Shown piece by piece: positions 28,747-61,167 of a DNA stretch of 64,000 nt. The stretch covers positions 992,001 to 1,056,000 of the forward strand of contig OZ004592.1 of the NCBI GenBank assembly GCA_963924555.1. Direction: 5' to 3'. A program made the translations under genes and the position numbers. The notes below the pieces were generated by a model. It saw only the letters and a program-made list of their open reading frames with translations. It had not been told where the DNA came from and searched no databases. Each line of letters begins with the position of its first letter. Position 1 is the first letter of the stretch. The stretch comes from Crambe crambe. Taxonomy: Eukaryota; Porifera; Demospongiae; Poecilosclerida; Crambeidae.

Positions 28747-28933
28747 GAGACTGTCCTAGAGTTCTGCTTCATTATGAGTATAATTATTAATGATAGATGG
28801 GCCCATGGTGGGCCATATGGGCCAGCAAGTTTTCGTGCGCATGCTCCGATCAACGGGGGAGGGGCTTTGGTGGGCATTAATATGAAAACTTTAGCAAACA
28901 CCGGTGCACCAGAGTCGTGGTTATAAAGCCACC

Positions 28934-31900
28934 ATGTCTTCTTTTGCTCGCAACCTCATCTTATTATCCATTCTGATCGCGGCTTCAGCTGCACAAACAA
29001 GAACTGAGAGGTACTTCAGACCCACCCCCAGCTCACCATGTCCGGTGGAGACATGCCACACCCTCATGGAGGTCCTGGAAGATGATACTCTCGCAGAAAC
29101 TGTGTTCTCTTCAAACACGCTTCTAGTGTTCCTGAGTGGAAATCACGTGGTGGATTTCACAAACGGAGGATACCTGACCATTAGGGACCTTGCAAATGTG
29201 AGCTTCATTGGTTCTCCAGAGGTAATTCCCGGCACAGTTGGACTCAATGGACCAGCTTCCAGAATTATTTGCAGGTCTCCTTTTGTTATGGAACTAGTTA
29301 ACATTTCTCGACTTGCATTTACTAATATCACATTCTCTGGTTGTGGTGCTAATCTAACAAATGAGTTATACACAGATGCTTTTCGTATCCAAACTCACGG
29401 GATCCACTACTTTGGACCAGAACAAAAAGCTGCCTTAGTGCTGGTTAACATTGATACATTTCAAATGATCCGTTGCTCAATTGAAGACAGCAAGGGCTAT
29501 GGTTTGCTTGCAGTGAATGTTCTGGGCAATTCGGCTGTACTTGGTTCCATCTTTGCTGGAAATAATAATTATACTGTCGGGGAGAAACGCTGCACCTCAT
29601 CTCCAGTTAATTTCCCCAATGACGTCACAGCTTGCAGTGGTGGGAACGCTCTCTTCGTCTTTGAAGATCTCCCAGAATGTCCATCGATACCTCAACAATA
29701 TTCTCTCCTCATCCGTAACTCTGTCTTTGTGCTGGGCGTGAACGGTTATGGTGGACGTCTAGCTGACTTACTTCTGACTCGGGGAACTGGAATTGGTCTC
29801 ATCTTGTCGCAAAACTCTTACGGTGTGACTATAACATTGGACTCGGTAGTGGCATATGGAAATAGTGCATTGATTGCTGCCAATATCTACATAGCCGTGT
29901 ACGATGTAGTGGATAACTCAACTATCCACATACAGAATAGTTCAAGTTCTCGTGCCAATGGCGGCTTACTGACAGTTAACAGTTTCTTTGAACAGAGCAA
30001 CAGTGCTTCTGGAGGTTTGCACATGGAATATGGTCTTCCATTTCTTGCTTCCTTCGCTTCTCCTGTGTGTGCAAAGAAAAGGAAACATAATAGAGATATC
30101 ATTAACATAATAAATAGTGATTTCAACGATAATGTGGCGCTGTTGGGAGCTGGAGCTTTTTTCGAGATTCGTGTGGGCACTGACGTCAGATTCGATGATC
30201 CAGGTCATGTTGTCAAATTCTCAATTAAGAATTGCACCTTTTCTGGAAATATAGGGGTGACAGGCATAGGTATACATGTCTCCCAGCAAGACAACTTTGA
30301 AGGTGTTGGCACAAGTCAAGTCATCATCGAAAATGTTAATATCAAGTTTAATTCTTATGTCACACCCATAAGGAACTTGACTGAACTGTATACCAGTTAC
30401 CAGCTCAATGTGGTTCAAATGATTTCTGCTGATAATGTCACCTTCATAGACTGTAATTTTGTTGGAAATGGGGCATCAGCCCTCTCAGTATTCGACAGCA
30501 ACGTGGGAATGTCTGGTCTGGTAAACTTCATAAGCAATAGTGGAATTGAAGGTGGAGCAATCGAAATGCAGAACTCCCACCTGGTGCTCTCACCAAACAC
30601 TCGTGTGAACCTACTTGATAACTACGCTTTGTATAATGGCGGGGCACTCAAAGTCACAGGACGAAATGATCTAGCCGTTCTTTGTTTCTTCCAAGTAAAT
30701 GATCCACTCCTAAATCCGAATATCACTCTTCACTTTGAGGGTAACTATGCCGAACAAGCAGGCAGTGTATTATACGGAGGATCGATCGACAGATGTATTG
30801 TTAATCCTCAGACGTTCCTCTCTCTAAATTCTTCCAGTGAGGTCTTTGATTTCCTCACAGATATTGGGCCTCACAGTAACGAGACATCCACTATTTCCTC
30901 AGATCCTTTAATAGTGTGTCTTTGTGTGGGAGATAAACCAGATTGTACTCAGAGGGAAGTGAACGTATCTCTGTTTTCCGGTGCTTCTGTGACAATTCCT
31001 CCCATAGTAACCATTGGACAAAGAAACGGAACAACTCCTTCGAATGTATACATCATAACTGACCAGAAAACACGACTGGGAGAATTTCAAGAAGTCCAGC
31101 AAGTGAAGAAGACCTGTACACTATTGAACTTGACCGTTTCTAGCAACAGTACCAACTCCAGGCTTCTTATTCGTACTGGAAACTTGGCTGTAGATGGAAG
31201 TTTATCTGTAAATTTCGTGATCCTGCCATGTCCTCTTGGATTTGTAAACATCAGTGGAGAGTGTACCTGTGACCCCATAACCCAACTCGCAGACTATTCC
31301 ATCACTTGCAGCATCGACAACAGGACCATTCAGAGAGAGGGAGGGAGTTGGATAAGCGCCTCATATCTGGGACCCAATGGGAGTTACAATGGCGTCTCTC
31401 TTCTTGCCATCTGTCCCTATGATTATTGCATATCTGCTACCACAAATGTTGATTTATTGGAGCCGGACACACAGTGTGACCTAAACAGGAGAGGGACATT
31501 GTGTGGTGGTTGTAAGCCTGGATTAACTGTGAGTCTTGCAAACTCTCAATGTATAGAATGTTCCAATAACTACCTCGCACTGATGATAGTGTATGCCATT
31601 TCAGGAGTGTTGTTAGTAATTATCCTGTTTTTCTTGGACTTCACTATCGCCAAGGGAACTTTGAGTGGAATCATTTTTTATGCAAACATTGTGCACGACA
31701 ACAAGTTCTTATTCTTCCCTCCTGGGGCAAGCAATGTCATAACTGTGTTTGTATCATGGTTGAGTTTGAGTGAAGGTCTGGTTGGCTGCTTTTACGACGG
31801 TTTGGACAGCTTTGGAAAGGCTTGGCTTGGATTCATCTATCCATTCTACATTTGGATCATTGTCATCATCATCATCGTAGCTAGTCGATTCTCATCCAGA

Positions 31901-32773
31901 GTGGCAAGAGTATGTGGTTCAAAATCTGTCCCAGTCCTGGCTACTCTCATCCTTTTGTCCTACAATAAACTCCTTATATTCATCATCATTGTTCTATCAT
32001 CTGCTTCAATCATCAACCCCGATGGAAGCTTTCATGTCGTTTGGTCATTTGATGGTAACATGGATTATTGGAAAGGAAAACACATTCCACTGGCAATTTT
32101 TGCAAACATTGTCCTCATCTTCTTCGTCATTCCTTACACATTTCTGTTGTTAGTTGTGCCACTGTCCTGCATACAGGCTCGCTCTACTCACCACTTTCTC
32201 TCCTGGGTCAACAAACTAAAACCATTCATGGATGCCCATCAAGGCCCCTTCAAAAACTCTTACAGGAACTGGACAGGCATCTTACTGGTTGTGAGGATTT
32301 TCCTATCTATAATACTATCATCAGTGAACATTGGAAAATCACACACTAACTTCTACTTGCTTGCTATAGCCACAGTGATGGTTTTGCTCTTGAGCTTTGG
32401 ATGGGTTTCAGGAGGAGGGGTGTATAAGAAATGGCCGCACAATGTGCTGGAGTGTTCTTTCTATTTGAATCTTGCAATTCTTTCGATCGCAACTCTCTAC
32501 GTGAGGCAGACAAATGGTGCCAGGCAGGATGCATTAATCCTCACCTCTGGCTCCATTGCACTGGCACAGTTTATTGGAATCATTTTCTTTCATGTAGCAG
32601 AGCGTGTCTATTCACTCAAGTGGATCAAAAAATTGATGACCAAAATGACAGAGAAAGTTAGAACAGATAAAAAGACAATGCAAGAGGAACCAATTAAGTT
32701 TGCTACCACTAGCGACTATCCATCCACATCTTTCGTTGATCTGAGAGAACCTCTCATAGACGATACTAGCTAG
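28934..32773 (+). CDS. Intronless 1279-aa beta-helix / multi-TM receptor-like protein 3
   Basis: A single uninterrupted frame. I chose ATG 28934 because it sits in a textbook Kozak context (GCCACCATGT) and opens a signal peptide (MSSFARNLILLSILIAASAA); the in-frame extension upstream has no ATG. Residues about 30-700 are an N-glycosylated beta-helix-type ectodomain (NVALLGAGAFFEIR, ENVNIKFNSY, EGNYAEQAGSVLYGG). A Cys-rich module near 765 (CPLGFVNISGECTCDP) leads to RGTLCGGCKPGL near 855. From about 880 come about eight membrane spans, with FYANIVHDNKFLFFPPG, WLGFIYPFYIWI, PVLATLILLSYNKLL and YRNWTGILLVVRIF. The tail ends DLREPLIDDTS, nearly the LREPLLDDF tail of receptor 1. Absence of introns, against about 20 in the two sister genes, suggests origin by retroposition or wholesale intron loss. 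The function is unknown. Confidence 0.88.
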   Translation: MSSFARNLILLSILIAASAAQTRTERYFRPTPSSPCPVETCHTLMEVLEDDTLAETVFSSNTLLVFLSGNHVVDFTNGGYLTIRDLANVSFIGSPEVIPGTVGLNGPASRIICRSPFVMELVNISRLAFTNITFSGCGANLTNELYTDAFRIQTHGIHYFGPEQKAALVLVNIDTFQMIRCSIEDSKGYGLLAVNVLGNSAVLGSIFAGNNNYTVGEKRCTSSPVNFPNDVTACSGGNALFVFEDLPECPSIPQQYSLLIRNSVFVLGVNGYGGRLADLLLTRGTGIGLILSQNSYGVTITLDSVVAYGNSALIAANIYIAVYDVVDNSTIHIQNSSSSRANGGLLTVNSFFEQSNSASGGLHMEYGLPFLASFASPVCAKKRKHNRDIINIINSDFNDNVALLGAGAFFEIRVGTDVRFDDPGHVVKFSIKNCTFSGNIGVTGIGIHVSQQDNFEGVGTSQVIIENVNIKFNSYVTPIRNLTELYTSYQLNVVQMISADNVTFIDCNFVGNGASALSVFDSNVGMSGLVNFISNSGIEGGAIEMQNSHLVLSPNTRVNLLDNYALYNGGALKVTGRNDLAVLCFFQVNDPLLNPNITLHFEGNYAEQAGSVLYGGSIDRCIVNPQTFLSLNSSSEVFDFLTDIGPHSNETSTISSDPLIVCLCVGDKPDCTQREVNVSLFSGASVTIPPIVTIGQRNGTTPSNVYIITDQKTRLGEFQEVQQVKKTCTLLNLTVSSNSTNSRLLIRTGNLAVDGSLSVNFVILPCPLGFVNISGECTCDPITQLADYSITCSIDNRTIQREGGSWISASYLGPNGSYNGVSLLAICPYDYCISATTNVDLLEPDTQCDLNRRGTLCGGCKPGLTVSLANSQCIECSNNYLALMIVYAISGVLLVIILFFLDFTIAKGTLSGIIFYANIVHDNKFLFFPPGASNVITVFVSWLSLSEGLVGCFYDGLDSFGKAWLGFIYPFYIWIIVIIIIVASRFSSRVARVCGSKSVPVLATLILLSYNKLLIFIIIVLSSASIINPDGSFHVVWSFDGNMDYWKGKHIPLAIFANIVLIFFVIPYTFLLLVVPLSCIQARSTHHFLSWVNKLKPFMDAHQGPFKNSYRNWTGILLVVRIFLSIILSSVNIGKSHTNFYLLAIATVMVLLLSFGWVSGGGVYKKWPHNVLECSFYLNLAILSIATLYVRQTNGARQDALILTSGSIALAQFIGIIFFHVAERVYSLKWIKKLMTKMTEKVRTDKKTMQEEPIKFATTSDYPSTSFVDLREPLIDDTS

Positions 32774-33119
32774 CCATTCTCTACACAATCCATTGAAGCA
32801 ACGTAACTATTAAAAGTAAAGAAATTATTATTAATTATGTGGCATGTAACAAAAACTATTTAAAGGTGTTATAAATAATAATTTGTAGATATTAAAGGTT
32901 TATTCTGCAGCAAAAGTTGTGGCAGCAATAGAGTTAGTTATAATATGTTATAGGAGGATGTGTAGAACGATACATAGCATGACTTATGATTCTGAAGGGG
33001 GTGGAGGTGGGGGAGGGGCACCAGACTGCAAGGGAGACAAAGAACACCATACATCAAGCTAACTACCGTAGGAACGAGAGCTCTTTGACCACTAGGCTGA
33101 GTATATTGGCAAAATCTAT
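32774..33119. other. Convergent intergenic spacer (receptor 3 / SF1)
   Basis: 346 AT-rich bases holding both 3' UTRs, with several AATAAT/ATTAAA-like possible polyadenylation signals (for example at about 32892). No further gene is seen. Confidence 0.6.
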
Positions 33120-36100
33120 CTAGTTACAGTTCACTTCAATTTTTACCCGCCCCATGGAATTTCCCTTCATAGTTCGTACCCAGTTTTGGTCGGGAGGTGG
33201 AGGTGGAGGGGCCCCAGGCCCCACAGGTGGTGGGAGGGGAGGAGGTGCCATTCCCTGAGGCCCAGTGCCATACATTAGAGGAGTTGGTGCCTGTTGTTGC
33301 CATGGAGGGATTTGAGAGGGAGGGGCTTGCTGCTGCCATGGCGGTGGCTGGGAGAAAGGTTGTGATGTTGGCTGGGATGTGTTAGGGTTGGCTTCACTAG
33401 TGGGAGCAGGTGCAGCAGAGTTGGGAGGCATGGCAGGGTAACATGGTGCTTGTTGTGGCATAGGTGGACCAGCGGTATTAGAGTTGGGAACCTGGGGTGT
33501 CTGCATATAAGCATGTTGGGCTACAAGGGGAATAGAAGGGGGAGTAAAATTTCTGTGTTTTTACTATTGTAAATCTGACTCACCTGGTGGTACTAAAGGC
33601 ATTGGCATTGGACCTGGCATGAGGGGGGTGGGGCCTGCAGGAGGGGCCATAGCCCATGGAGGAGGAACTAAGAAAGAAATTTAAAAGATGGTTATTACAG
33701 CATCTGCTATTAGGAGGGTGTGTGTGTGGTTACTGACCTCCCTGAGGCATCATCATGAATGGTGGAGGAGGTCCAGGCATCATGAGTGGAGCTCCTGGAG
33801 GTGGTACGTTCTGCATCCACGGACCTACTGGTTCATTTGGTCTAGGTCCCTAATTGGGAGACATTTATCATTGGAATAATTATCATCGTGGAAATTGACC
33901 TAATGTACCAAGTTTGAGGGTGGAGGGACAGCAGTTCCACTTGTCGGTGTGTCAGGTACGGACTCCCCAAGTTCCTTCATCAGTGATAAGTACTACATGT
34001 AGGAGGGAGGAGAGGGGGCGGAGCAGGGTGGGGAGGGGGAATAGTTAAATTGACCAACAGAGTAGTGTCAACGGCAGCCTAACTTACTTCACTGTCCATC
34101 TTTGCTTTATCCACCGGAGGGGCTGGTATCGTCGTCCTGAAATAACACATCATAAGCTATGTCATACACATCTCTATAGGTGTGATGACCAAACCTACAG
34201 GTCAGCCTTGCAGTCTGTTGCAATGTGACCTCCGCCTCCACAGCGTGTGCAGATGATGGTGGAAGTGACGTTCTGATGCTCCTGGCACTCCCATGTCTTG
34301 TGCTGAGTCGAGCCACAATTCCGACACCTGGATACCCACACCACAATGCAGTCAGTCAGTTATAAGACCCCCACAAAAGGTTTTTATGCAGTGACATATA
34401 TAGTGTAAATGCTATGGTATCTTAGAGCTATGACTATGCATAACTCTTGAACATGACTACCATTATTTTGGCCAATAATTATGATGTTGCTTCACTTCAA
34501 CACCATTACGAACATGCATTGATCTCTAGTCTGTAGGGTCACATGTTAACACAAAGTCTTACTATAAGGGCATGTTCAGAATGATTCCAGATAGAGCATT
34601 TTGAAAATGGCAGTTTCTAGTCAGGATGTTCAGTTTAACTTGATTGAGATTCACAAAGGGGATGAGAACCTTCTTGGGATCTGGTCCTATGGCAACATCT
34701 ATAAGGCTACTTGTGACTATCTTCCCTGTGCTGCTAAAGTACTCCATCCCATCTTGTTCCAGACAAGCAATCCTCAGGTATTGTACCAAGAAGTGGCCTC
34801 TCTACAAGACCTCAGACATCCTAACATTGTCCAGCACCTTGGCTGCTATCAAGATCCCAAGACAAATCTACCAGTACTTTTCACTGAGCTGGTGGATGAG
34901 AGTTTGACCTTGTTTCTTAGCCGATCTCGCATTCCCCTACCTTACCACACCCAGCTTGACCTCAGCCATGAAGTAGCCCTGGCCCTTGCTTATCTCCACA
35001 CCAGAAAATTGATCCACTGCAATCTCTCTGGCAGCAGTGTGATGTTGGTTAATAACAGAGCCAAGGTTACCGACTTTGCAGTATCAAAATTAGAAGAAGC
35101 TAGCAAGAGCTCCAGGCAAAGGTTCCCTCTCACCAAAGAAGAGTTCTACTTGCCTCCTGAAGCACTGAAAAAAGTGCCCATTTTCAGTATAAAGACTGAC
35201 AGCTTCTCGTTTGGTGTACTGTTAGTTCAGGTCATAACACGACTGTACCCCACTCCAGGTGATGAGATGGAAATAGTTGATGATCCTCAAGCTCCTCTTG
35301 GAGTTCTTTATAAACCAGTAACAGAACTTCAAAGAAGGAAAAGCCATATTTCATTGGTAGGTGAGCACTCTCTCATGCCGATCATTACTAAATGCCTCGC
35401 TTTCAAAGCTGAAGACAGACCATGTGCAGGAGAACTGTGTCAAAAGACGTCCAAACTCAAAGGGATGGATCAATATCAGAAGAGCAAAAAAAAACATCTC
35501 AAAGCAAGAAGCGATGAAGACACTGATGAGGTACCAGATGACTTCAATGTTAAAGGGTGGAACAAACACCAAAAAAGTATCGATCAAGAGCAGTATCCTA
35601 AGCAACAAGAATTCAACTTTACATGGCAACCAGCTGATGACCAAGCTGACGATCAAGTCAACTATAGCAACTGTACAGTGTCCATAATTGATAGTGACAC
35701 AATATACTTCTCGGATTACGGTGAGTATATATACGCATTTCACATTCAAGAGAAAAAATGGTCGAAAATTCATGCCAATGGCAAATGCAACTATGCAATA
35801 GCCATTATCGAAGGAATGCTGACTACCATTGGAGGAAGCAGAAAAGGAGATGGGCTACACGATAACTCCCTGTACAGCTTATTGAGCAATGACACTGAAA
35901 CCCAAAAATGGGTACAATACTATCCACCGTTGAAAAGCTCTCAGCAATTTCCAGCTGCTGCGGTCTATAAAGATAAGTTTGTGATCGTGTGTAGCACTAC
36001 AAGCAATACGAGTTACACTCTCCATTCTCTGAACTTTTCGGGTACGAGTAGTGTGTCTCAATCTCATGATTCAACTGAGTTGTTGTATCTTACTCAAGGC

Positions 36101-39100
36101 CAAAAGCAATGGCTGACAGTCGAAGGATTACAATTTCCATACAGCAAGGGGTCAGCAATAATAATTGATGATGCTTTATATCTACTTCCAAAACAGAACA
36201 GCCTTGGCTTACGAGAGGAGAAATCTGTATTAAGCTGTTCCGTTAAGGATCTTTTAGCTTATGATGGTCGAGAATTGGAGTGGAGACATCATGCTGAGCC
36301 CCCAATGTTTGCCAGTGGTTATGCAGCTGTCAGCGGAAGACTACTAGCCTTCGGAGGGCAGGAGGGTAACGATCAATATTTACACTCAAAAAAAACCACC
36401 AATAATGTGTACCAATACGATCCAGAGAGTGACTCGTGGCAGGTGATTGGTCAGATGCCTAACGCAAGGTCTCATGCCTGCGTCACTGTCCTTCCAAATA
36501 ATAAACTACTTGTAGTAGGAGGATCTATCATGTCCAACACTCTGGAACCAGTAGCAACTACAATCATTGACAGCGCTACATACACTTTAACATAAAATCA
36601 ACCACTTAGCTGTCTGTATGATCTTGTGATTCTTTGTGCAAATCATTTATTGCTATTAGTTTTGTGGTACCATAGTATGTGCTCTCAAAAGGAAAACAAC
36701 CACCCCGCCATCGTTTTTATAGTAATATACAGCTATATACAACTCCCCCCCCCCCCCCCCCCCCCCCCCCCCACCATCACAATCTTCAAGGGGACTCTCA
36801 TACATTACAACAGATTGCAGTGATCTTGCAACATGAAATCCAGAACAGCAAAATCAAAATTTACATAGCCTCCTTTCAAATGGCTTTGGAGTTGGGCTAC
36901 TTGAAAGGAGGCTATGTAAATTTGCTGTTCTGGATTTGTATTGCCACTGCAATCTGCTGAAAGTACTTGGCACTGCACCTTGCCAACAGGTTGACATTAC
37001 ATAAATGTAAACATTTCCATATAAGGAAGGGAAGCAAATTGCTGCACCACAAAATGGCTGGTTCTCAGTCTAGTTCATTTGAGATTCACAAAGGGGATGA
37101 GAACCTTCTTGGGATCTGGTCCTATGGCAACATCTACAAGGCTACTTGTGACTATCTTCCCTGTGCTGCTAAAGTACTCCACCCCATCTTGTTCCAGACA
37201 AGCAATTCTCAGGTATTGTATCAAGAAGTGGCCTCCCTACAAGACCTCAGACATCCTAACATTGTCCAGCACCTTGGCTGCTATCAAGATCCCAAGACAA
37301 AGCTACCAATACTTCTAACTGAGCTGGTGGATGAGAGTTTGACCTCATTTCTTAACCGATCCCATAGTATCCTACCTTACCACACCCAGCTTGACCTTAG
37401 CCATGAAGTAGCCCTGGCCCTTGCTTATCTCCATGCCAGGAAGCTAATCCATCGCAATCTCTCTGGCAGCAGTGTGATGCTGGTTAATAACAGAGCCAAA
37501 GTTACTGACTTTGCAATATCAAAGTTAGAAGAAGCTAGCAAGAGCTCCAGGCAAAAGTTCCCTCTAACCAAAGAAGAATTCTACTTGCCTCCCGAAGCAT
37601 TGAAAAAAGTTCCCATTTTCAGCATAAAGACTGACAGTTTTTCTTTCGGTGTACTGTTAGTTCAGATCATAACACAACAGTATCCCAACCCTAGTGACGA
37701 TTTAGAGGTTGTTGAAGATCCTCAAACTCCTCTGGGAATTGTTTACAAGCCAGTCGTGGAAATAGACAGGAGAAAAGGTCATATTTCGCTGATAGGCGAG
37801 CACTCTCTCAAACTAACCATTACTAAATGCCTCGCTTTCAAAGCCGAAGACAGACCATGTGCAGGAGAACTGTGTCAGGAAATATCCAAGCTTAAAGGTC
37901 TGAATCAATATCAGAAGAGCAAAAAAAGTAATCTCAAAATTTCTTGTAAATCTAGCGATGAAAACTCCAATGAGTCACCAGATGTCGTCAATAGCAAAGA
38001 GTGGAACAAAAACCAAGAAAGCATCAGTCCAGAGCCATATGATAATACAGTGCAACAAGGATTCAATTTCACATGGCAGCCAGCCGATGATCAAGCCAAC
38101 GATCAGGTCAACTACAGCAAATGCACAGTGTCCATAGTCGATAGCGACACTATATACTTCTCAGATTACAGTGAGTATATATATGTACTTCATACTCGGG
38201 AGAAAAAATGGTCGAAAATTCATACCGAAATATGTAACTATGCAATAGTGATTATTAAAGGAATGCTGACCACCATTGGAGGAAAACCCCTACCAGGTGC
38301 ATTAATCCCCCGTGGCGGTCATAAGTCCTTATATAGCTTATTGACCAATGATGCTGGCACCCAAAAATGGGTAGAGTACTAGGGCAATGTTCAACATTCA
38401 GTTGACAGCGAGCGAGCAAGCAAGTATTCTTCAACGATTTTCATTTGCTGTTGAGTATCTGTAGCAATGTGCAGCATTTGACAGTGAGCAATTAAAGTAG
38501 CTGATATGCTTCAGTGCTTGATATTGTTAAGAGTCATGTAAGTGGTGGCAGGCAGCTGCATACATGCTTACCTCAAAGCACTTAGATAAGCCTAGTGCCT
38601 ACAAGCCGCTTAGATAAGCCTCTTGTCAGTCTTGTGCCTGCTGCCCAAAAGGCTGTAGAAATGTTGAGCTGATAGTTCATTTGTGCTTTGCTGTTGTGTT
38701 ATGTAGCTAAGTGGCAGGCAGCTGCATGCATAGAAAGCTAAGTACTTACCACAAAGCACTTGGATATGTCTAGTGCCTACAATCCACTTAGATAAGCCTA
38801 GCCCAACTATCCACCATGCTATATACAAAGCGATGTAGTAATCAATCAAGCAATTGCAACTGGAGCATGCGCATAAATGCACGCGCAGGGGCGCTACTAT
38901 TGCACGACACTTACCTACTTACGTAAGTACGCCTGGGGCATTTTGGAGTGTAGACCTAGATATATATATATATATATTTAAAATTTCAATGAGTCATGAC
39001 CTGAGAGTCAGCTCACTCGCTTCGCTCGCTCGCTGCAATTACCCACCAATGACATACAGTCGGGAATTTCCATATGCTGCAGTATATAAAGATGAACTTG

Positions 39101-42100
39101 TGATTGTATGTGGAAATTGTCCACCCTCTACTTCTCCATTCTGTACTTCTGTTCAACCCCCTACTTTTGTTGAAGTATTATGTCTAACTAAAACCAAGAA
39201 GCAATGGATGACAGTAAAAGGACTACATTATATGTATGGTAAGGGGTCAACAGCCATTATCAATGATAATCTTTATCTACTACCACGATACTCGGGAGGA
39301 CAGGAAGAAAAATCTGTATTAAGCTGTTCTATTAAAGATCTTTGGTGAATTGGAGTGGAGACATCATGCTGAGCCCCCAATGTTTGCCAGTGGTTATGCA
39401 GTTGTCAGTGGAAGACTACTCGCCTTCGGAGGGCAGGAGGGCAATGATCAATATTTATGCTCCAAAGTAAAAACCAGTAATGTGTACGAATACAATCCAG
39501 AGAGTGACTCGTGGCAGGTCATTGGTCAGATGCCTAACACAAGGTCTCATGCCTGCATCACTGTCCTTCCAAATAAATTATTTGTGATGGGAGGATCTAT
39601 TACGTCCAACACTCTGGAACCAGTACCAACAGTGCCACATAGTCTATTCAGAAACACTCTGGAACCAGTACCAACCACAATTATAGACAGTGCTACATAC
39701 TCTTAACCAACCACTTTATATGATCAGTTTTCAGCTTGTGATTCCCTGTGCTAATTATCTATTGCTTAAATAGTGTAGTACCAAGTAAGGATTGATCCTG
39801 CTCTCAAAAAGAAAGCAGTCATAGCCACCCGACCATCATTTTCATGTTATTATTTAATTCCCCCCCCCCCCCCCCCCCCAATTTTAAGGATACCCTGCCC
39901 TTAGGTGATACACTATAATAAAGAGTCCCCTAGTAACTCTACTTCGCATGTCCCCAGACAATGTACATAACAAGTATTCCATATAAGGAAGGAAGTGAAT
40001 GCCCACTCAAGCCACAAGCATTTGAAAAATGGCAGGTCTTAGCCAGTCTCAGTCTAGTTCATTTGAGATTCACAAAGGGGATGAGAACCTTCTTGGGATC
40101 TGGTCCTATGGCAATATCTACAAGGCTACTTGTGACTATCTTCCCTGTGCTGCTAAAGTACTCCACCCCATCTTGTTCCAGACTAAAAACCCTCAGTCTC
40201 TGTATCAAGAAGTGGCCTCCCTACAAGACCTCAGACATCCTAACATTGTCCAGCACCTTGGCTGCTATCAAGATCCTGAGACTAAACTACCAGTACTTTT
40301 CATTGAGCTGATGGATGAGAGTTTGACCTCATTTCTTAACCGATCCCATAGTCTCCTACCTTACCACACTCAGCTCGACCTCAGCCATGAAGTAGCCCTG
40401 GCCCTTGCTTACCTCCACGCCAGGAAGCTAATCCATCGCAATCTCTCTGGCAGCAGTGTGATGCTGGTTAACAACAGAGCCAAGGTTACTGACTTTGCAG
40501 TATCAAAGTTAGAAGAAGTTAGCAAGAGCTCCAGGCAAAGGTTCCCTCTCACCAAAGAAGAATTCTACTTGCCTCCCGAAGCATTGAAAAAAGCTCCTAT
40601 TTTCAGCATAAAGACGGACAGCTTTTCTTTCGGTGTACTGCTAGTTCAGATCATAACACGACAGTATCCCAACCCCAGTGACGACTTAGAGGTTGTTGAA
40701 TATCCTCAAACTCCTCTGGGAATTGTTTACAAGCCAGTCATGGAAATAGACAGGAGAAAAGGTCATATTTCGCTGATAGGCGAGCACTCTCTCAAACTAA
40801 CCATTACTAAATGCCTCGCTTTCAAAGCCGAAGACAGACCATGTGCAGGAGAACTGTGTCAGGAAATATCCAAGCTTAAAGGTCTGAATCAATATCAGAA
40901 GAGCAAAAAAAGTAATCTCAAAATTTCTTGTAAATCTAGCGATGAAAACTCCAATGAGTCACCAGATGCCGTCAATAGCAAAGAGTGGAACAAAAACCAA
41001 GAAAACATCAGTCCAGAGCCATATGATAATACAGTGCAACAAGGATTCAACTTCACATGGCAGCCAGCCGATGATCAAGCCAACGATCAGGTCAACTACA
41101 GCAAATGCACAATGTCCATAGTCGATAGCGACACTATATACTTGTCAGATTACAGTGAGTATATATATGTACTTCATACTCGGGAGAAAAAATGGTCGAA
41201 AATTCAAACCGACACACGTAACTATGCAATAGTGATCATTAAAGGAATGCTGACCACCATTGGAGGCCAAAAAAGGTTCATTGACTATGTTGAAACTAAA
41301 TCCCTATATAGTTTATTGACCAATGACGCTGGCACTCAAAAATGGGTAGAGTATTACCCACCAATGACATACAGTCGGGAATTTCCATATGCTGCAGTAT
41401 ATAAAGATGAACTTGTGATTGTATGTGGAAATTGTCCACCCTCTACTTCCACTAGGTCTTATACTCATCCATCCCTTACTTCTCCTACTTTTGTTGAAGT
41501 ATTGTGTCTAACTGAAACCAAGAAGCAATGGATGACAGTAAAAGGACTAGATTATATGTATGGTAAGGGGTCAACAGCCATTATCAATGATAATCTTTAT
41601 CTACTACCACGATACTCGGGAAAAAATTGCTTTGGTCAACAATACTACTCGGGAGGACAGGAAGAAAAATCTGTATTAAGCTGTTCTATTAAAGATCTTT
41701 TAACTTACGATGGTGGTGAATTGGAGTGGAGACATCATGCTGAGCCCCCAATGTTTGCCAGTGGTTATGCAGTTGTCAGTGGAAGACTACTCGCCTTCGG
41801 AGGGCAGGAGGGCAATGATCAATATTTATGCTCCAAAGTAAAAACCAGTAATGTGTATGAATACAATCCAGAGAGTGACTTGTGGCAGGTCATTGGTCAG
41901 ATGCCTAACACAAGGTCTCATGCCTGCATCACTGTCCTTCCAAATAAATTATTTGTGATGGGAGGATCTATTACGTCCAACACTCTGGAACCAGTACCAA
42001 CAGTGCCACATGCTAGACCTATATTCAGAAACACTCTGGAACCAGTACCAACCACAATTATAGACAGTGCTACATACTCTTAACCAACCACTTTATATGA

Positions 42101-45100
42101 TCAGTTTTCAGCTTGTGATTCCCTGTGCAAATCATCTATTGCTTAAATAGTGTAGTACCAAGTAAGGATTGATCCTGCTCTCAAAAAGAAAGCAGTCATA
42201 GCCACCCGACCATCATTTTCATGTTATTATTTAATTCCCCCCCCCCCCCCAATTTTTAAGGATACCCTGCCCTTAGGTGATACACTATAATAAAGAGTCC
42301 CCTAGTAACTCTACTTCGGTGTCCCCAGACAATGTAATAACAAGTATTCCATATAAGGAAGGAAGTGAATGCCCACTCAAGCCACAAGCATTTGAAAAAT
42401 GGCAGGTCTTAGCCAGTCTCAGTCTAGTTCATTTGAGATTCACAAAGGGGATGAGAACCTTCTTGGGATCTGGTCCTATGGCAATATCTACAAGGCTACT
42501 TGTGACTATCTTCCCTGTGCTGCTAAAGTACTCCACCCCACCTTGTTCCAGACTAAAAACCCTCAGTCTCTGTATCAAGAAGTGGCCTCCCTACAAGACC
42601 TCAGACATCCTAACATTGTCCAGCACCTTGGCTGCTATCAAGATCCTGAGACTAAACTACCAGTACTTTTCACTGAGCTGATGGATGAGAGTTTGACCTC
42701 ATTTCTTAACCGATCCCATAGTCTCCTACCTTACCACACTCAGCTCGACCTCAGCCATGAAGTAGCCCTGGCCCTTGCTTACCTCCACGCCAGGAAGCTA
42801 ATCCATCGCAATCTCTCTGGCAGCAGTGTGATGCTGGTTAACAACAGAGCCAAGGTTACTGACTTTGCAGTATCAAAGTTAGAAGAAGTTAGCAAGAGCT
42901 CCAGGCAAAGGTTCCCTCTCACCAAAGAAGAATTCTACTTGCCTCCCGAAGCATTGAAAAAAGCTCCTATTTTCAGCATAAAGACGGACAGCTTTTCTTT
43001 CGGTGTACTGTTAGTTCAGATCATAACACGACAGTATCCCAACCCCAGTGACGATTTAGAGGTTGTTGAATATCCTCAAACTCCTCTGGGAATTGTTTAC
43101 AAGCCAGTCATGGAAATAGACAGGAGAAAAGGTCATATTTCGCTGATAGGTGAGCACTCTCTCAAACTAACCATTACTAAATGCCTCGCTTTCAAAGCCG
43201 AAGACAGACCATGTGCAGGAGAACTGTGTCAGAAAATATCTAAACTCAAAGAACAGGATGAATATCGAAGTAGCAGACATTCCAAAAATGTGGATGCTAG
43301 TAAGTTACCTGATAATCGTGATTATACTGCACAACCAGTACAACGTGAAATCAACCTGACATGGTTACCAGCTGAACAAACCAATTACACCAAATGTGCA
43401 ATATCTGTAGTCAAAGGTGACACCATATACTTCACAGATTATAGTGAGTACACATATGCATATCACTGTCAAGAGAGAAATTGGTCAAAGATTTGTCTCC
43501 AGGGCAGATCAGAATATGCAATAACAGTCATTGAAGGAAAATTAACTGCTATTGGAGGAAAGATTGGATGTTTTATCAAAAAATCTCTAATAAGCTTAAT
43601 CGATGTTAATGGTGCGCAAAAATGGGTGAAATATTACCCCCAAATGACATGCCCACGAAACTTTGCAACTGCTACAGTTTATAAAGAAACACTTGTGATT
43701 GTCGGTGGTAGTAGTAATACACCAACAGAAATACTGGATATAACACAAAACCAGAAAAAATGGGTGAAAGTGAAAGGTTTAACCTATTGTGGGTATCGAA
43801 CCTCATTGACAATAGTTGATGATACATTATACCTAACAGGACAAACAGATTCGTGTAATACACAAGTAAAAACTATAACAAGCTGTTCAATCAAAGATCT
43901 TTTAGCTTATCAAGATCAGAAATTGACATGGAAAAATCACGCTGAGCCACCATTCTTTGCCAGTGGTTATGTTGCAATTAATGGAAAACTACTTGCCTTT
44001 GGTGGGCAAGCTGGAAATGACCAATATTTGTGCTCTAAAAAGACGAGCGATGAGGTGTATGAGTATGACCCAGAGAGTGATTCCTGGCAAAGCATTGATC
44101 ACATGCCTAACGCAAGGTCTCATGCCTGCATCACTGTCCTTCCAAATAATAAATTACTTGTGGTAGGAGGCTACATATTATCAGAGACTCTGGAACCAAA
44201 ACCAACTGCAATTATCGACACTGCCACACTTATATATTGATAACACAAATTAACTTTCCCCAGTAAATGAACTACAATGTTTGATATTCCCTTCCCCCTA
44301 CTTCCCACATGATGGGTACTTAGCTTCACTTCATACCTATTTTTGCTTTGCATACTTTTTGTTGTGTACACAGCCTGGTATACAAGCAATGGATGGCATA
44401 TATCAAGGTGTATCCCCTTTATGGTACACTTGATCATGCAGCAGAAAGAGTTGGTCTTACTTGAGGACATCTAGAGGCTTGAAAGTGCCATTGAGCTCAG
44501 CCAGCTGTTGCAATTGGAGCTTCTTCAGGTCATTGTCATTGCCAGGGACATCAATACCACTTTGAATGATAGACCGTATCTGAGCAAGTAAAAAAAAAAA
44601 AAATTATCCACATCAAAGGAAGTGAGGGACCAAAAGCAACAAAATAATGCCTCGTTTCAGGTAAGCTATCTGTACCTTGTCCACAGCATCCTTGACTACC
44701 TCTGGGGTGGTCCCAGTAATGAGGGCATGAAGTGGCTCATCCTCCCCTGGCTGGGGAAGCCCTGCCCTCCCTAGCTTCCCCTCCTTGGTGGCCCCCTTAC
44801 CACGGATCATGATCTTGGTCTGTGTCTTTATGTACAGAGAGCAACTAAATGAGTGTAGACTGACAAAAACATTATTAATTAATATTACCTCTCTCTCAAG
44901 CTGCTTCAGTGTGTTGCCACTATAAGAAAAAAATTAATTAGCCACAATTATTTAAACTTACTGTAAGGAAGCCCCTATTAATTAATTAGCCATAATTATT
45001 TAAACTTACTGTGAGCTGTGAGAAAGCCCCTTTAATTAATTAGCCATTATTAAACTTACTGTGGGAAAGCCCCTATTAATACTTCCAATTTTATTATTTA

Positions 45101-46446
45101 GCCATAATTATTAAACTTACTATTAATGCTTTCAGTCTTATCATAAATGATTGCTTACCGTGGACCTATGAGCAGGCCTACAAAATTAGTCTCCGGATGG
45201 TGATCCTGAGGGATGAATACTTTGTCTTCGAACTTCCTATTGGGTGCCCTGTCATATCATCCAAATTACATTCATCATAACATCTAATAATGTCCACTTA
45301 CTTATAATCTATAGGAGGTTTGTACTCGGGGTTGAGGGTGCTTGCCTTCTGGATGAGGTCGTGTCGTTCGTCCTCCAGTCTCTTGCGTACTCGCACCTCA
45401 CGTGTGTTGAGTCGCTTCCCATCGTGACTATAAATGGGCTCAGGAGAAGGGGATCTGTTGGGTAATATTCAGTGTGGAAAGTCTTTAGCACTTTCAAAGG
45501 AACATGAAAGGAACACAGTCCCTCTCACCCATCCCCCCAAAGGGGCTGGTGGGGGAAGATGCTGAACCACAGCGAGTAAGAAGTTTTGGTAACAACTCAA
45601 ATCAAACCATGATTGAGATGAAGGAAACAAAAACTTGATACCTGATATGCCGGTTGGTATTGTACACACAAATATACTGCATTACCTGTCAGACGGGTTC
45701 ATAGGAATCCCCAAGTCCCCAGTCCTCAACATACGACTGTTCTCCTCAATCTTCAGATGTACTAAAGTATAAAGTTCATATATGATAGATAAAATGATAA
45801 ACTGATGGCAGACTCACATAAATACAACTCTTGTTCATCATCCTTCATGTCAGAAGGCAAGACAGTTGGGAGACCAGGGATTATTGTTTTTGTCTCTTCT
45901 TTTCCCCAACGACTTTTCCGTTTCTTTGCAGGTGGCTTTGCAGCTGGGTGTATCAACACAATGATAATCATTGCAGGGGCTGGTGACCTATGAGTGGGGT
46001 ACTTACAAGAAAAAAGAGCTGATGCCGCTCTTTTTGCAGCCTCTAAATGTTTTTGGAGCTCAGGATCTTTGCTGCCACCACTACATTGGTATCATAGACA
46101 CACACACACACACAGTAGAACTTTAATATTATTGGGAATTTAGGGGTTAATTAACACTCATCTATAAGAGTAAATTTTAAAAATTTGGAAACGTCATTTG
46201 GCATAAAACTTATTTGTTCCTTTCATTCTACATACATGCTTTATGAATATAGACAACCTTCTCCCAGTGTTCTCTTGTGCTAAGGATTCTGTCTATTCCA
46301 CCAAAACTAAATGACAACACTTCACTTGTATCTTATAAAGTTAGGGTGTATCAATACCTATTCGAGTTACTCTGGTTTGAGGAAAACTTGGCAGCAAGAA
46401 TTGGGTGGAGTTTTCCTAGAGGGGCTGTGTTGGCTCCTGTAGCCAT
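33120..46446 (-). CDS. SF1: Splicing factor 1 (branchpoint-binding protein), 15 coding exons
   Basis: SF1 binds the intron branchpoint with U2AF in early spliceosome assembly in the nucleus. Exons: 46446-46358, 46080-46007, 45943-45818, 45761-45686, 45454-45302, 45248-45159, 44919-44889, 44825-44676, 44579-44461, 34327-34199, 34136-34088, 33992-33909, 33849-33738, 33667-33584, 33520-33120; phases agree, giving 588 aa. It starts [10 protein letters not shown], like human SF1. Then come [11 protein letters not shown] (the U2AF-binding Arg/Trp region), [20 protein letters not shown], the KH domain ([35 protein letters not shown]), QUA2 ([15 protein letters not shown]), zinc knuckles [14 protein letters not shown] and [24 protein letters not shown], and a Pro-rich C-terminus with PPWQQQAPP. 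The intron between 44461 and 34327 is about 10.1 kb and contains four genes on the other strand. The acceptor for exon 8 reads ATAAAG. Confidence 0.95.
34607..36595 (+). CDS. Pseudokinase-Kelch protein, copy A (intronless, 662 aa)
   Basis: Single exon inside the big SF1 intron. The ATG at 34607 matches the start of the sister copies (GAAAATGGC). Residues about 15-285 form a tyrosine-kinase-like (TKL) domain: the VAIK lysine is present (CAAKVLHP, K44), as is the helix-C Glu (YQEVASL, E62), but the catalytic HRD is HCN (137-139), the loop Asn is Ser (NLSGSSVML) and DFG is DFA (156-158). This predicts an inactive or strongly impaired kinase. After a charged linker, residues about 340-662 carry Kelch-type blades ([47 protein letters not shown]), usually a protein-binding beta-propeller. 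No signal peptide or membrane span, so cytosolic. A scaffold role in signalling is inferred. It differs from copies B-D by many substitutions and is the oldest-looking branch. Confidence 0.85.
   Translation: MAVSSQDVQFNLIEIHKGDENLLGIWSYGNIYKATCDYLPCAAKVLHPILFQTSNPQVLYQEVASLQDLRHPNIVQHLGCYQDPKTNLPVLFTELVDESLTLFLSRSRIPLPYHTQLDLSHEVALALAYLHTRKLIHCNLSGSSVMLVNNRAKVTDFAVSKLEEASKSSRQRFPLTKEEFYLPPEALKKVPIFSIKTDSFSFGVLLVQVITRLYPTPGDEMEIVDDPQAPLGVLYKPVTELQRRKSHISLVGEHSLMPIITKCLAFKAEDRPCAGELCQKTSKLKGMDQYQKSKKKHLKARSDEDTDEVPDDFNVKGWNKHQKSIDQEQYPKQQEFNFTWQPADDQADDQVNYSNCTVSIIDSDTIYFSDYGEYIYAFHIQEKKWSKIHANGKCNYAIAIIEGMLTTIGGSRKGDGLHDNSLYSLLSNDTETQKWVQYYPPLKSSQQFPAAAVYKDKFVIVCSTTSNTSYTLHSLNFSGTSSVSQSHDSTELLYLTQGQKQWLTVEGLQFPYSKGSAIIIDDALYLLPKQNSLGLREEKSVLSCSVKDLLAYDGRELEWRHHAEPPMFASGYAAVSGRLLAFGGQEGNDQYLHSKKTTNNVYQYDPESDSWQVIGQMPNARSHACVTVLPNNKLLVVGGSIMSNTLEPVATTIIDSATYTLT
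36747..36771. repeat. Poly-C tract in the A-B spacer
   Basis: About 25 C. Equivalent poly-C runs occur after copy B (39860-39879) and after copy C (42237-42250), so the tract is part of the duplicated unit and has changed length in each. Confidence 0.9.
36808..36960 (+). repeat. Long near-perfect hairpin between copies A and B
   Basis: Arms of about 65 bases (36811-36878 and 36898-36958) around a loop of about 21 bases. Nearly perfect blocks include CAGATTGCAGTG, AAATCCAGAACAGCAAA and TTTACATAGCCTCCTTTCAA. It could be a small MITE or the precursor of a small RNA. It lies just upstream of copy B and is missing from the B-C and C-D spacers. Confidence 0.7.
37054..39706 (+). pseudogene. Pseudokinase-Kelch copy B, broken
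   Basis: The ATG at 37054 ([20 protein letters not shown]) opens a frame like copy C through the kinase-like domain (HRN and DFA in place of HRD and DFG) and the first Kelch blades. At 38382 a foreign segment of about 655 bases interrupts it and brings an immediate stop; homology to copy C resumes at about 39038. Further on, 14 bases present in copy C are missing near 39346, shifting the frame to a stop. The final part (39350-39706, [20 protein letters not shown] onward) is otherwise nearly identical to copy C. A truncated kinase-like product of about 440 aa could still be made from 37054-38382. The Kelch half and 3' flank are much closer to C than to A. Confidence 0.8.
38383..39037. mobile_element. 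Inserted segment of about 655 bp in copy B (unclassified)
   Basis: Its borders are defined by comparison with copy C, where GTAGAGTAT runs straight into TACCCACC. Each end carries an inverted CAGCGAGCGAGC (38406-38417 and complement at 39024-39035), as subterminal inverted repeats would. Inside, about 85 bases recur (38538-38620 and 38708-38800: GGCAGGCAGCTGCAT, CAAAGCACTT, TAGTGCCTACAA, CACTTAGATAAGCCT). There is no coding potential. No clear target-site duplication, so the transposon class is open. Confidence 0.6.
40029..42083 (+). CDS. Pseudokinase-Kelch protein, copy C (intronless, 684 aa)
   Basis: Single exon, ATG 40029 in AAAAATGGC. It has a TKL-type kinase domain (about residues 12-280) with the VAIK Lys kept, HRN for HRD, Ser for the loop Asn and DFA for DFG, as in B and D. 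The linker is charged, and the Kelch half contains [41 protein letters not shown] and LFVMGGS. Near the C-terminus [19 protein letters not shown] is followed by a second NTLEPVPT, a small internal duplication shared with B. Versus B it has about 11 extra residues ([11 protein letters not shown]). The kinase half is almost identical to copy D (I see two amino-acid differences in about 278), while the Kelch half is almost identical to copy B: a mosaic. Predicted cytosolic scaffold. Confidence 0.85.
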   Translation: MAGLSQSQSSSFEIHKGDENLLGIWSYGNIYKATCDYLPCAAKVLHPILFQTKNPQSLYQEVASLQDLRHPNIVQHLGCYQDPETKLPVLFIELMDESLTSFLNRSHSLLPYHTQLDLSHEVALALAYLHARKLIHRNLSGSSVMLVNNRAKVTDFAVSKLEEVSKSSRQRFPLTKEEFYLPPEALKKAPIFSIKTDSFSFGVLLVQIITRQYPNPSDDLEVVEYPQTPLGIVYKPVMEIDRRKGHISLIGEHSLKLTITKCLAFKAEDRPCAGELCQEISKLKGLNQYQKSKKSNLKISCKSSDENSNESPDAVNSKEWNKNQENISPEPYDNTVQQGFNFTWQPADDQANDQVNYSKCTMSIVDSDTIYLSDYSEYIYVLHTREKKWSKIQTDTRNYAIVIIKGMLTTIGGQKRFIDYVETKSLYSLLTNDAGTQKWVEYYPPMTYSREFPYAAVYKDELVIVCGNCPPSTSTRSYTHPSLTSPTFVEVLCLTETKKQWMTVKGLDYMYGKGSTAIINDNLYLLPRYSGKNCFGQQYYSGGQEEKSVLSCSIKDLLTYDGGELEWRHHAEPPMFASGYAVVSGRLLAFGGQEGNDQYLCSKVKTSNVYEYNPESDLWQVIGQMPNTRSHACITVLPNKLFVMGGSITSNTLEPVPTVPHARPIFRNTLEPVPTTIIDSATYS
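42399..44240 (+). CDS. Pseudokinase-Kelch protein, copy D (intronless, 613 aa)
   Basis: Single exon, ATG 42399, with the same 5' flank as copy C for about 300 bases. The kinase-like half (HRN, DFA) matches copy C almost exactly to about codon 278 (nt 43232). From there ([20 protein letters not shown]) the sequence abruptly diverges: the linker is shorter and the Kelch half ([55 protein letters not shown]) is only a distant relative of the others. The 3' flank is also unlike that of C. This looks like conversion or unequal exchange of the 5' half only. Last member of the array; SF1 exon 9 lies about 220 bases downstream on the other strand. Confidence 0.85.
   Translation: MAGLSQSQSSSFEIHKGDENLLGIWSYGNIYKATCDYLPCAAKVLHPTLFQTKNPQSLYQEVASLQDLRHPNIVQHLGCYQDPETKLPVLFTELMDESLTSFLNRSHSLLPYHTQLDLSHEVALALAYLHARKLIHRNLSGSSVMLVNNRAKVTDFAVSKLEEVSKSSRQRFPLTKEEFYLPPEALKKAPIFSIKTDSFSFGVLLVQIITRQYPNPSDDLEVVEYPQTPLGIVYKPVMEIDRRKGHISLIGEHSLKLTITKCLAFKAEDRPCAGELCQKISKLKEQDEYRSSRHSKNVDASKLPDNRDYTAQPVQREINLTWLPAEQTNYTKCAISVVKGDTIYFTDYSEYTYAYHCQERNWSKICLQGRSEYAITVIEGKLTAIGGKIGCFIKKSLISLIDVNGAQKWVKYYPQMTCPRNFATATVYKETLVIVGGSSNTPTEILDITQNQKKWVKVKGLTYCGYRTSLTIVDDTLYLTGQTDSCNTQVKTITSCSIKDLLAYQDQKLTWKNHAEPPFFASGYVAINGKLLAFGGQAGNDQYLCSKKTSDEVYEYDPESDSWQSIDHMPNARSHACITVLPNNKLLVVGGYILSETLEPKPTAIIDTATLIY
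44938..45125. repeat. Tandem repeat in an SF1 intron, about 4 copies
   Basis: Period about 45-65 bases, built from TTAATTAGCCATAATTATT, TAAACTTACTGTG and AAAGCCCCTATTAAT with indels between copies. It fills most of the 239-base intron between exons 6 and 7 (44920-45158). On the minus strand the TTTAAGTT/AATTAATT strings fall where the branchpoint and pyrimidine tract would be expected. Confidence 0.85.
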
Positions 46447-46759: not shown

Positions 46760-48438
46760 ATGGCTGCAGTGATTAGAGGTCTCATACGTCTTCAAACGCC
46801 TCTCTCCCTTAGAAGCGGAGTTTTGGGGGCTGCATGGAGCAGAGGGCAACAAACTGCAGGTATTCACCATAAATTTCTACGTTCTAGTGAAGTCAGAAAA
46901 ACACTGACCCTTTTCTAATCTCCACACAGCTTCTCAGCGCCCTGCACCTGAGATTTACACAGTCCCCCCTCCTCAGCCTAAGGAGAAAAAGTCAGGTCAG
47001 TTAGAGAAATGGCAGCTGGAGCAGTTCTTTGATAAAGGGTTCCTGATTGTCCCCAAGTTTTTCACCAATGAAGAGATGCAGCCAGTCATTGAGGTATGTA
47101 TTGTAGTAAGCAGCAGAGGTGTGGTGTTTTTAGTAAATATACTCAAATCAATAGGGTGTAAAGGAGTGCGTGGAGATATTAGCTGACAAGTTGTACAAGG
47201 GAGGAAAGATCAAGGACAAGTGTGAGAAGGCAGGTTTTTACCATCGCCTGATCCTCATTGAAGAGCAGTTTAAGGGAGCAGCTGTGTTGCTACACAAGAT
47301 GGGCTACTTGCCCCCTGCATTCCAGCAGTTATGGACCAACGAGAAGCTTCTCAACATTATCGAACAACTCATTGGACCAAATATTGCTGGTGAGTAAAGA
47401 TTTTAGTTGTTCAATCTTCATGAAGTGTCTTGTAGTATAGTTCATTGGATATTACTTAACTGCTTGAGTTGTATAAATGCCTTTGTTATCCATTTCCTCC
47501 TGTGATGATTATTTCACTCTGAAGGTCACCCAGTGTGGAACCTCAGGACTAAGACACCTCATAACGAACAAACCACAGTACCTTGGCACCAGGACAATGC
47601 CTATCTGGACCATTCAGCCCTCAACACTTTAATGCCTACAGCGTGGATCCCTCTCATCGATGCCAATGCTACAAATGGTTGTATGCAGGTGAAGTAACTT
47701 AGAGTCATTCCCTTGCATCTAGCCTATGAACTGAATGTTCACATTATTAGATGATCTCTGAAGGACACAAACCTGGTGTCACGGCAACCCACACTTGCTG
47801 TGCAGGTGGTACCTGGTATGTGGACTTGGATGAGAAAGAAATGGAGAAAACTCTTGGAGTAGACTTGGAGAGAGACGTGGTGACATGTGAGGTTCCCTTT
47901 GGAGGGATGGTGCTCCTCAACAATTGCATTCCTCACAGAAGTTTGGAAAACTACTCTGACAAAGTCCGATGGAGTCTTGATTTTCGCTGGCAGGACCCTA
48001 AGAAACCAACAGGTTTTTATGACTTGAAGGAGTGTGTTATCATGAGGAAGGCAGATGACCCAAACTATAAGGTGGATTGGAAAGGTACCCCCATGGGCTT
48101 CAGTAGAGTCAATTGTTTTGTTAGTCCCTTTGGAACAAGTAAAATGGTTGGGGCTACACTACAAACTTCTAGTACCACAAAGCTAATCCTGTTGAGATTG
48201 GGTAAATTTGACTCATAGTCATGTGACTGGAATGATGAATTTTTATACAGATTTTGCTATTGTTGACCGCATTAAATTGAGCAGTAAGGCTGTTACTGAT
48301 CTAAGTGAGGATGAGTTTGATACAAACGTCCATGGTCCGTGGATGAATCGCTGGCAGATAGTCCATCACAACAAGCACACACAAAACTTGAAAGAAGGTA
48401 GCTCATGGCATTCTCATACTCTGGGTGACAAAGCCTAA
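46760..48438 (+). CDS. PhyH-family Fe(II)/2-oxoglutarate dioxygenase, copy 1 (394 aa)
   Basis: Exons 46760-46859, 46930-47093, 47155-47389, 47525-47688, 47751-48084 and 48251-48438, phases 1,0,1,0,1, shared exactly by all three copies. PhyH enzymes hydroxylate substrates such as phytanoyl-CoA using Fe(II) and 2-oxoglutarate. The metal-binding HxD is in VPWHQDNAYLD, the distal His is in NNCIPHRSLENY and the likely 2-oxoglutarate Arg is in DKVRWSLDFRW. The N-terminus (MAAVIRGLIRLQTPLSLRSG) is basic, hydroxylated and free of acids, suggesting mitochondrial import. I see no convincing PTS2, and the C-terminus DKA is not a PTS1, so this is unlikely to be the peroxisomal PHYH orthologue; the substrate is unknown. 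Confidence 0.88.
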
Positions 48439-60500: not shown

Positions 60501-61167
60501 TGGCTGCAGCCTGTGGGGGGTTGGGCTTGGCAATGCCTACTGCCGATGGGGAAGGTGATTTACTTGGAATAGGTGATGGAGACTTGGTGGTGTTTCCAGC
60601 GTTAGCCGTTGGTGGTGGAGAAGGTTTCGTGATAAGTGAACCAGTTGCTGCAGTCTTAGTTGGAGTGGGTGCAGGGCCATCCACTTCATCTTTTTTGCTT
60701 GTAGCACTTGGTGGGTAATAAAGGCCTCCAGGAACAGCTTGAACTTTTCCAGAAGATGACGATGATGAAGCTACTGCAGAAGATCCTCCAACTGTAGGCT
60801 TCTTTGTTGTTGTGCTAGAGATCACTTGCTCCTCATTCACACTCTTGTGAGTGGCTTTGATCCGCTTTAGTGCATTCTGTCTCTTCTCCTCTGCCTCAAG
60901 GAGCTGTAGGTTCGCAGTGAGGGACGAGATCGCGACATTTTTCTTGTCCTGCGAGGAGTTTGCAGGAGATCTCCCAGCGACTCCAGTGCCATTGGTTCTG
61001 GAAATATTCAACGGAGTTTTCTGAGATAGCTGGGGACTCCGTCTACCTGCAGAGGCTCCACCTTTGAGCAGAGACGGGGTGAGGGAATTTAAGAAGGCAT
61101 CTGCTTCTTGCTCACGCTGTTGGCGCTCTTTAGCTTCGGCCTCAGATTCTCCAGCATACGAAGACAT
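55380..61167 (-). CDS. Proline-rich Costars-LIM protein (1104 aa, 5 exons)
   Basis: Exons 61167-58390, 57758-57621, 56402-56211, 55897-55818 and 55506-55380 keep phase. The 926-codon first exon is low-complexity: a charged N-terminus (EAEAKERQQREQEADAFLNS), about seven degenerate repeats of the type VVKKIDEGKVQKPPPP (59830-60400), then a polyproline block with the 12-aa unit GGPAPPPPPPV (58930-59240). Exons 2-3 encode a Costars domain (EIQRLGTPNGEGKYQVLFGQ, FEALSGTLNTARKLK, VVSFEGEHLMQ), the actin-related module of ABRACL/ABRA. Exons 4-5 make one LIM zinc domain: CVMC, HSNCF, CCDC, LYCRSHYDQRY. Polyproline segments of this kind bind profilin or SH3/EVH1 domains, so a cytoplasmic actin-regulating role is inferred. 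I do not know a named protein with this domain order. Confidence 0.85.
57536..57604. repeat. (CATA)n microsatellite beside a donor site
   Basis: About 17 CATA units with one ATAT interruption. On the minus strand the (GTAT)n array starts about 15 bases after the GTATGTATG donor of the Costars exon ending at 57621. Confidence 0.9.

Follow-up and report, generated by a model that had tools for sequence, protein, structure and literature searches.

SF1 is in all likelihood a single gene here, and its intron 9 hosts on the opposite strand a probably dead kinase-Kelch family which, as read from the sequence, would have grown by unequal crossing-over from one founder. SF1 is the branch-point-binding splicing factor and acts in splicing. 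The window, by which we mean the whole stretch of 64,000 nucleotides analysed, corresponds to C15:992001-1056000 in its own assembly, and the features that bear on this reading are given in Table 1.

Table 1. Positions, strands and properties of SF1 exons and intron 9, nested units, tandem duplication and dispersed element in the window
Feature	Position	Strand	Remarks
SF1 exons 1-3	46446-46358, 46080-46007, 45943-45818	-	GT-AG model, one open frame
SF1 exons 4-6	45761-45686, 45454-45302, 45248-45159	-	GT-AG model, one open frame
SF1 exons 7-9	44919-44889, 44825-44676, 44579-44461	-	GT-AG model, one open frame; exons 1-9 span 44461..46446
SF1 intron 9	34328..44460	-	10,133 bp, phase 2
SF1 exons 10-12	34327-34199, 34136-34088, 33992-33909	-	GT-AG model
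SF1 exons 13-16	33849-33738, 33667-33584, 33520-33180, 33025-32984	-	Model; exons 10-16 span 32984..34327
Nested copy 1	34607..36595	+	Intact, single exon, pseudokinase-Kelch, 662 aa
Nested copy 2	37054..39706	+	Broken
Nested copy 3	40029..42083	+	Intact, 684 aa; chimera
Nested copy 4	42399..44240	+	Intact, 613 aa
Tandem duplication	39289-40905 and 41646-43275 (span 39289..43275)	+	96.9% identical, 1638 columns, period about 2.37 kb
Dispersed element in copy 2	38378..39037	+	660 bp; longest stop-free stretch 102 codons

The SF1 gene and its ninth intron

Positions 46446-32984 of the minus strand code for SF1, which was modelled as 16 exons with GT-AG borders at all 15 introns and one open frame of 582 aa. 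The acceptor of exon 8 was placed at 44819 in a first model and at 44825 in the final one, the two differing by two residues in that exon; the latter is preferred because the alignment to human SF1 is gapless there. In Pfam, run on the first gene model, SF1-HH, KH-I_KHDC4-BBP and KH_1 are above cut-off and zf-CCHC is slightly under it (20.3 vs 20.8 bits), and two zinc-knuckle motifs can be recognized by eye in exon 10. The human SF1 chain 7vpx_D aligns in a single stretch to residues 59-384 of the query (residues 1-390), across the exon 9/10 junction, with an E value of 1.8e-114; the alignment has eight fewer residues at the first knuckle. SF1-HH, KH and CCHC knuckle occur in order and collinear with human SF1, as in an SF1/branch-point-binding protein, the knuckle being just below its cut-off. 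The original prediction placed the end of SF1 at 33120; the frame there probably reads on into an intron, and exon 16 is the better candidate for the last coding exon.

The proposal that the exon ending at 44461 (...LDVLK) and the one starting at 34327 (CRNCGS...) join in phase proved right, and the coordinates of the junction were exact. Intron 9 has GTAAGA as donor and ATCCAG as acceptor, and two CTGAC words resembling branch points can be read from the sequence within about 35 nt of the latter. The other 14 introns are short, as had been said, though their range in the model is 53-277 bp and not about 60-350 bases; intron 9 is about 37 times as long as the next longest. The window's own assembly (143,139,886 bases in 119 contigs) was searched with SF1 residues 1-390, giving 11 matches, ten of which are exons of this locus and one a 38% KH-domain match elsewhere on the same contig. 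A second complete SF1 locus had been named as an observation that would count against the prediction; with this query of residues 1-390, SF1 exons were found at this locus only, and neither a second nor a split locus was found in the 143-Mb, 119-contig assembly. In this sense, phase, splice sites, collinearity with human SF1 and the finding of no other SF1 strongly support, from the sequence, the claim that the gap of about 10.1 kb is an intron, and we infer that SF1 would be spliced across 10 kb as one gene.

Other open frames were observed in the neighbourhood of SF1. Beside it, three similar frames on the plus strand (47751-48218, 49490-49861 and 51838-52188) look like tandem dioxygenase-like exons, which we take to be PhyH-like; Pfam gave no match for these single exons. 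Tail to tail with SF1 lies a single open frame of 1292 aa (28895-32773) that has, by eye, a beta-helix-like and membrane-spanning look, and no Pfam or NCBIfam match; the neighbouring protein given to NCBIfam was of 1278 aa. Additionally, a 953-aa single-exon, proline-rich open frame is found on the minus strand at 58351-61212, with no match in Pfam.

Units of the array and the wider family

From the first ATG to the last stop (34607-44240, spacers included), the plus-strand tandem array occupies 95% of intron 9. The whole coding span lies inside 34328-44460, which makes these units nested (intronic) genes, and their coding regions are 279 bp and 220 bp away from the nearest SF1 exons. All four copies contain a kinase domain in Pfam (PF07714, 95-110 bits vs a cut-off of 23.1), and Kelch_1 and Kelch_6 are above cut-off in copies 1, 3 and 4, with one clear repeat stretch each, the scan of copy 2 having taken in its front piece only. 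NCBIfam, run on copy 3, gave sub-cut-off matches only. Four intronless genes on the opposite strand had been predicted; the four kinase units are there and three of them are intact single frames, whereas copy 2 is broken. Pure poly-C runs of 28, 20 and 14 bases are located downstream of copies 1, 2 and 3 (36745-36772, 39860-39879 and 42237-42250, respectively); read on the SF1 sense strand they are runs of G and, as a guess, might favour misaligned exchange.

A genome search with copy 1 gave at least 75 matches, 67 of 533 candidates having been scored. The other three nested units are 69-76% identical, and the next relatives among the matches listed reach at most 47% identity to copy 1; a closer relative outside the intron could be missed, since 67 of the 533 family candidates were scored. 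Many of the listed members are located close together on contigs C3, C5 and C16. From the listed matches we hand-picked, not at random, 20 distinct relatives (24 loci fetched, four of them repeats). As in the nested copies, the kinase stands in front and the Kelch motifs behind in nine of the ten relatives scanned, which were mostly picked for long frames, and the open frames are long; the remaining one, L005, contains the kinase only, and many family frames match it in length. The sampled members (loci L005-L008 and L013-L032) are single open frames, so that a single-exon structure is usual in the family and not special to the intronic array. For the same reason, retroposition of the founder, which was considered, is not needed. 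The longest repeat common to both flanks of the array is 11 bp. Scans with short peptide patterns, which may leave out the window's own genome, were also made of viral and prokaryote collections, and no relative was confirmed there.

The HRD aspartate, the catalytic-loop asparagine and DFG are key catalytic residues of kinases. They are kept in 20/20 sampled relatives and, unlike in these other members of the family in the same genome, they are lost in the four nested copies, which show HxN/S/DFA, i.e. asparagine, serine and DFA at those positions (the catalytic loop of copy 1 was read as a stretch of 11 residues, letters not shown). The nested copies thus do not have the residues of an active protein kinase, and all four keep the lysine, the C-helix glutamate and the DFA aspartate. 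The nested kinase domain is probably catalytically dead. In a tree of 24 rows the four nested copies form one group with a support of 100/100, apart from the 20 relatives (midpoint rooting was used for drawing only). The nested units resemble an inactive branch, grown in place, of a family whose catalytic residues are intact, and these probably dead kinases stand beside many relatives of the same genome in which the catalytic residues are kept. Because the catalytic residues are lost while those of the fold are retained, the likeliest role of the nested proteins would be that of non-catalytic scaffolds, in which partners would be bound by the pseudokinase and ligands by the Kelch part. Structure prediction for four proteins of the window had a mean pLDDT of 36 and was unusable.

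Growth of the array and decay of copy 2

The tandem duplication of 1638 columns is out of register with the gene borders. We found that the front of copy 3 is of copy-4 type at 94/96 informative sites up to 40745, and its back of copy-2 type at 419/443 (17 sites are of copy-4 type and 7 of neither), the switch point being located between 40740 and 40781. One main switch together with a duplicated spacer is what an array grown by unequal crossover presents, two patches being exceptions. Of the 52 differences between copies 2 and 3 in their aligned back part, 39 lie in these patches, whose limits were set after seeing the data and which comprise 203 of 1388 columns; 17 differences fall in a single window of 60 columns, against a maximum of 12 in 2000 shuffles. 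The two patches and the 24/443 misfit sites suggest that later conversion or another donor contributed to copy 3.

The expansion of the array inside SF1, as the original prediction had it, is backed by the nested clade (100/100 against 20 sampled relatives) and by a chimeric copy 3 such as unequal crossover gives. The tension with the essential nature of the host gene appears weak: an exchange between misaligned intronic units changes intron length only, so the SF1 exons are spared and an array can change within an essential gene. In this sense, the array illustrates why introns tolerate such growth.

A founder from the large genome-wide single-exon kinase/kinase-Kelch family, with catalytic residues intact, would have come into the SF1 intron. 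The loss of its key catalytic residues is common to all four copies and would therefore most simply be placed ahead of the earliest duplication that survives; these losses might also predate arrival in the intron. Unequal crossing-over would have multiplied the units in place, and in the last step a misaligned B/C exchange may have converted A-B-C into A-B-(C front/B back)-C, i.e. copies 1-4. Copy 2 would have been broken afterwards by a mobile element and a small deletion. We infer this order of events from the present arrangement of the copies. The birth of a gene family in an intron, with its founder, catalytic loss, chimeric duplication and mobile-element decay, would thus be readable in 10 kb while the SF1 frame is intact.

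Compared with copy 3, copy 2 has the 660 extra bases listed in Table 1 and lacks 14 bp after 39342, which results in a frameshift. An in-frame stop (38380-38382) is found right inside the insert, and the genome search with copy 1 also reports stops in copy 2. The 660-bp element is not present in copies 1, 3 and 4 and has no duplicated flank, the empty site in copy 3 indicating no target-site duplication. At least 91 matches to it are present in the genome, from 40 scored out of 1882 candidates, and among the matches listed, besides itself, some cover positions 1-660 at 87-99% and others are partial. Sixteen full-length copies of the element, picked from the listed matches and including that of copy 2, were examined at their edges: a T is found on one side in 16/16 and target-site duplication is not consistent, a comparison that tells little, three of the copies being situated in TAT repeats and at least one bordering directly on another unit. 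A weak 5-bp hairpin lies near a CTAG end. Helitron/Helentron-like elements are characterized by the absence of target-site duplication, a T at the insertion edge, a 3' hairpin and an autonomous Rep/helicase partner, and the insert presumably resembles a non-autonomous element of this type. It also has a subterminal inverted repeat of 12 bp (38406-38417 and 39024-39035). The element, found also at loci L010-L012 and L033-L042, occurs in head-to-tail groups elsewhere in the genome. That the insert is a new, working spliceosomal intron was considered and rejected: a GT (38376) and an in-frame CAG are readable, but the element is dispersed and the later frameshift stays.

It is unlikely that the similarity of the copies comes mainly from gene conversion among old copies instead of unequal crossover. 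Conversion would agree with the patches of copy 3 that fit neither parent well, and with kinase halves of copies 3 and 4 that are near identical (dS 0.03) next to Kelch halves with a dS of 0.91; however, a single switch point accounts for most of the sites, and near-identity extends from the end part of copy 2 across the spacer and on into the kinase half that follows, as duplication predicts. We find it very unlikely that SF1 is here an assembly artefact or a copy that was split or rearranged, whose halves are not one transcription unit, with a working SF1 elsewhere. The disproportionate length of intron 9, about 37 times that of the next longest SF1 intron, would be accounted for in that way, and the 97% identical 1.6-kb repeat of the array might confuse an assembler. 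Yet no other SF1 was found in the 143-Mb assembly with residues 1-390, the exons of the model stay open and join in phase, the back half of copy 3 carries sequence of its own, and the contigs are megabases long (C15 has 7.2 Mb), which suggests long reads. One SF1 gene with an array grown by unequal crossing-over in its intron 9 is thus the reading we prefer.

Regarding expression, we found the word TATAAGG upstream of copy 1 (34563..34569, plus strand) with further instances at 37020, 39982 and 42352 for copies 2-4, i.e. 34-47 bp before the ATG in 4/4 copies; the 64-kb window holds 10 such words on both strands, and the four are not independent observations because the copies are related. The rest of the upstream sequence is poorly conserved between copies 1, 2 and 3. 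Each nested gene may be transcribed from its own promoter. The sense-antisense coupling of array and SF1 that had been proposed is a matter of speculation, and it is very unlikely that the array regulates SF1, either by antisense transcription or through the 10-kb length of the intron, with effects on splicing or expression. Such regulation would be in line with the opposite-strand geometry, with an array that fills 95% of the intron and with SF1 being itself a splicing actor. Transcriptional interference by nested genes is also the subject of a paper, as its excerpted text indicates (PMC3192792). Against regulation, no nested coding region overlaps an SF1 exon, a TATA-like word precedes each copy, the unit number of the array appears to have changed, and nested genes are frequent, as far as the excerpted sources indicate.

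Constraint on the nested genes and comparison with other animals

Between copy 1 and copies 3 or 4, dN/dS was 0.18-0.19 in the kinase and 0.28-0.29 in the Kelch part, and it was 0.37 in the Kelch part of copies 3 vs 4; these five comparisons (0.18-0.37) have bootstrap upper limits of 0.28-0.52, and the dS of 1.14 for the Kelch part of copies 1 vs 4 is near saturation. The kinase of copies 3 vs 4 gave 0.14 with an upper limit of 0.65, there being too few changes. For copies 2 vs 3 the value was 0.20 in the kinase front before the switch, and, with the back divided into three parts, 0.96 (10 changes), 0.36 (32 changes) and 0.60 (3 changes), which denotes no clear constraint. The intact nested genes look as if kept by protein-level selection, copy 2 not clearly so. 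Positive selection on Kelch was considered and is unsupported, as both dS (0.25) and dN (0.09) are elevated in the patch region, a pattern that fits conversion or another donor. It is also rather improbable that the SF1 intron, lying in a steadily transcribed housekeeping gene, provides a sheltered place for a fast-changing family of non-catalytic, receptor-like proteins, in which crossovers that do the host no harm would shuffle pseudokinase fronts and different Kelch backs while two Kelch patches stay unusually variable; if this were true, individuals or lineages would get different ligand-binding sets.

Intron-nested genes are common in animals, sponges included, and the SF1 array is a well-resolved example of a known arrangement. 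According to excerpts of the respective papers, nested intronic genes make up 12.24% of exonic bases in Hormiphora (PMC8527503), and nested genes number 2432 (12.4%) in Aphrocallistes, 3358 in Amphimedon, 5032 in Sycon, 83 in Oopsacas and 0 in Ephydatia, differences between species which the authors blame largely on annotation method (PMC10282587). Nested genes are often located on the strand opposite to the host, as stated in part of another source (PMC3786989). The SF1 array resembles the sponge and ctenophore nested genes, as these are described in the excerpts, in having whole genes in an intron, many single-exon, and tandem clusters, and differs from those annotation-dependent genome-wide counts in being one resolved four-unit array (PMC10282587, PMC8527503). 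Among the open-licence titles listed, none concerns an array nested in SF1 and none a kinase-Kelch expansion in sponges, and no SF1 case occurs in the excerpts.

The mechanism of growth proposed here is the same as that for the tandem clusters of Ephydatia muelleri, which the excerpted text ascribes to slippage and unequal crossing-over, stating it for gene clusters generally, with no mention of host introns there (PMC7385117). The closest likeness in arrangement is with Drosophila dunce, where, in the excerpted account, an intron contains Sgs4 and four ng genes, three of which resemble Sgs3 without its intron (PMC10835880). In both cases several genes lie in one intron of an unrelated gene. 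Unlike in the dunce intron, as far as that account goes, the host and the proteins are others here: the units are pseudokinase-Kelch genes, all copies lie on the strand opposite to the host, and the chimera is still visible.
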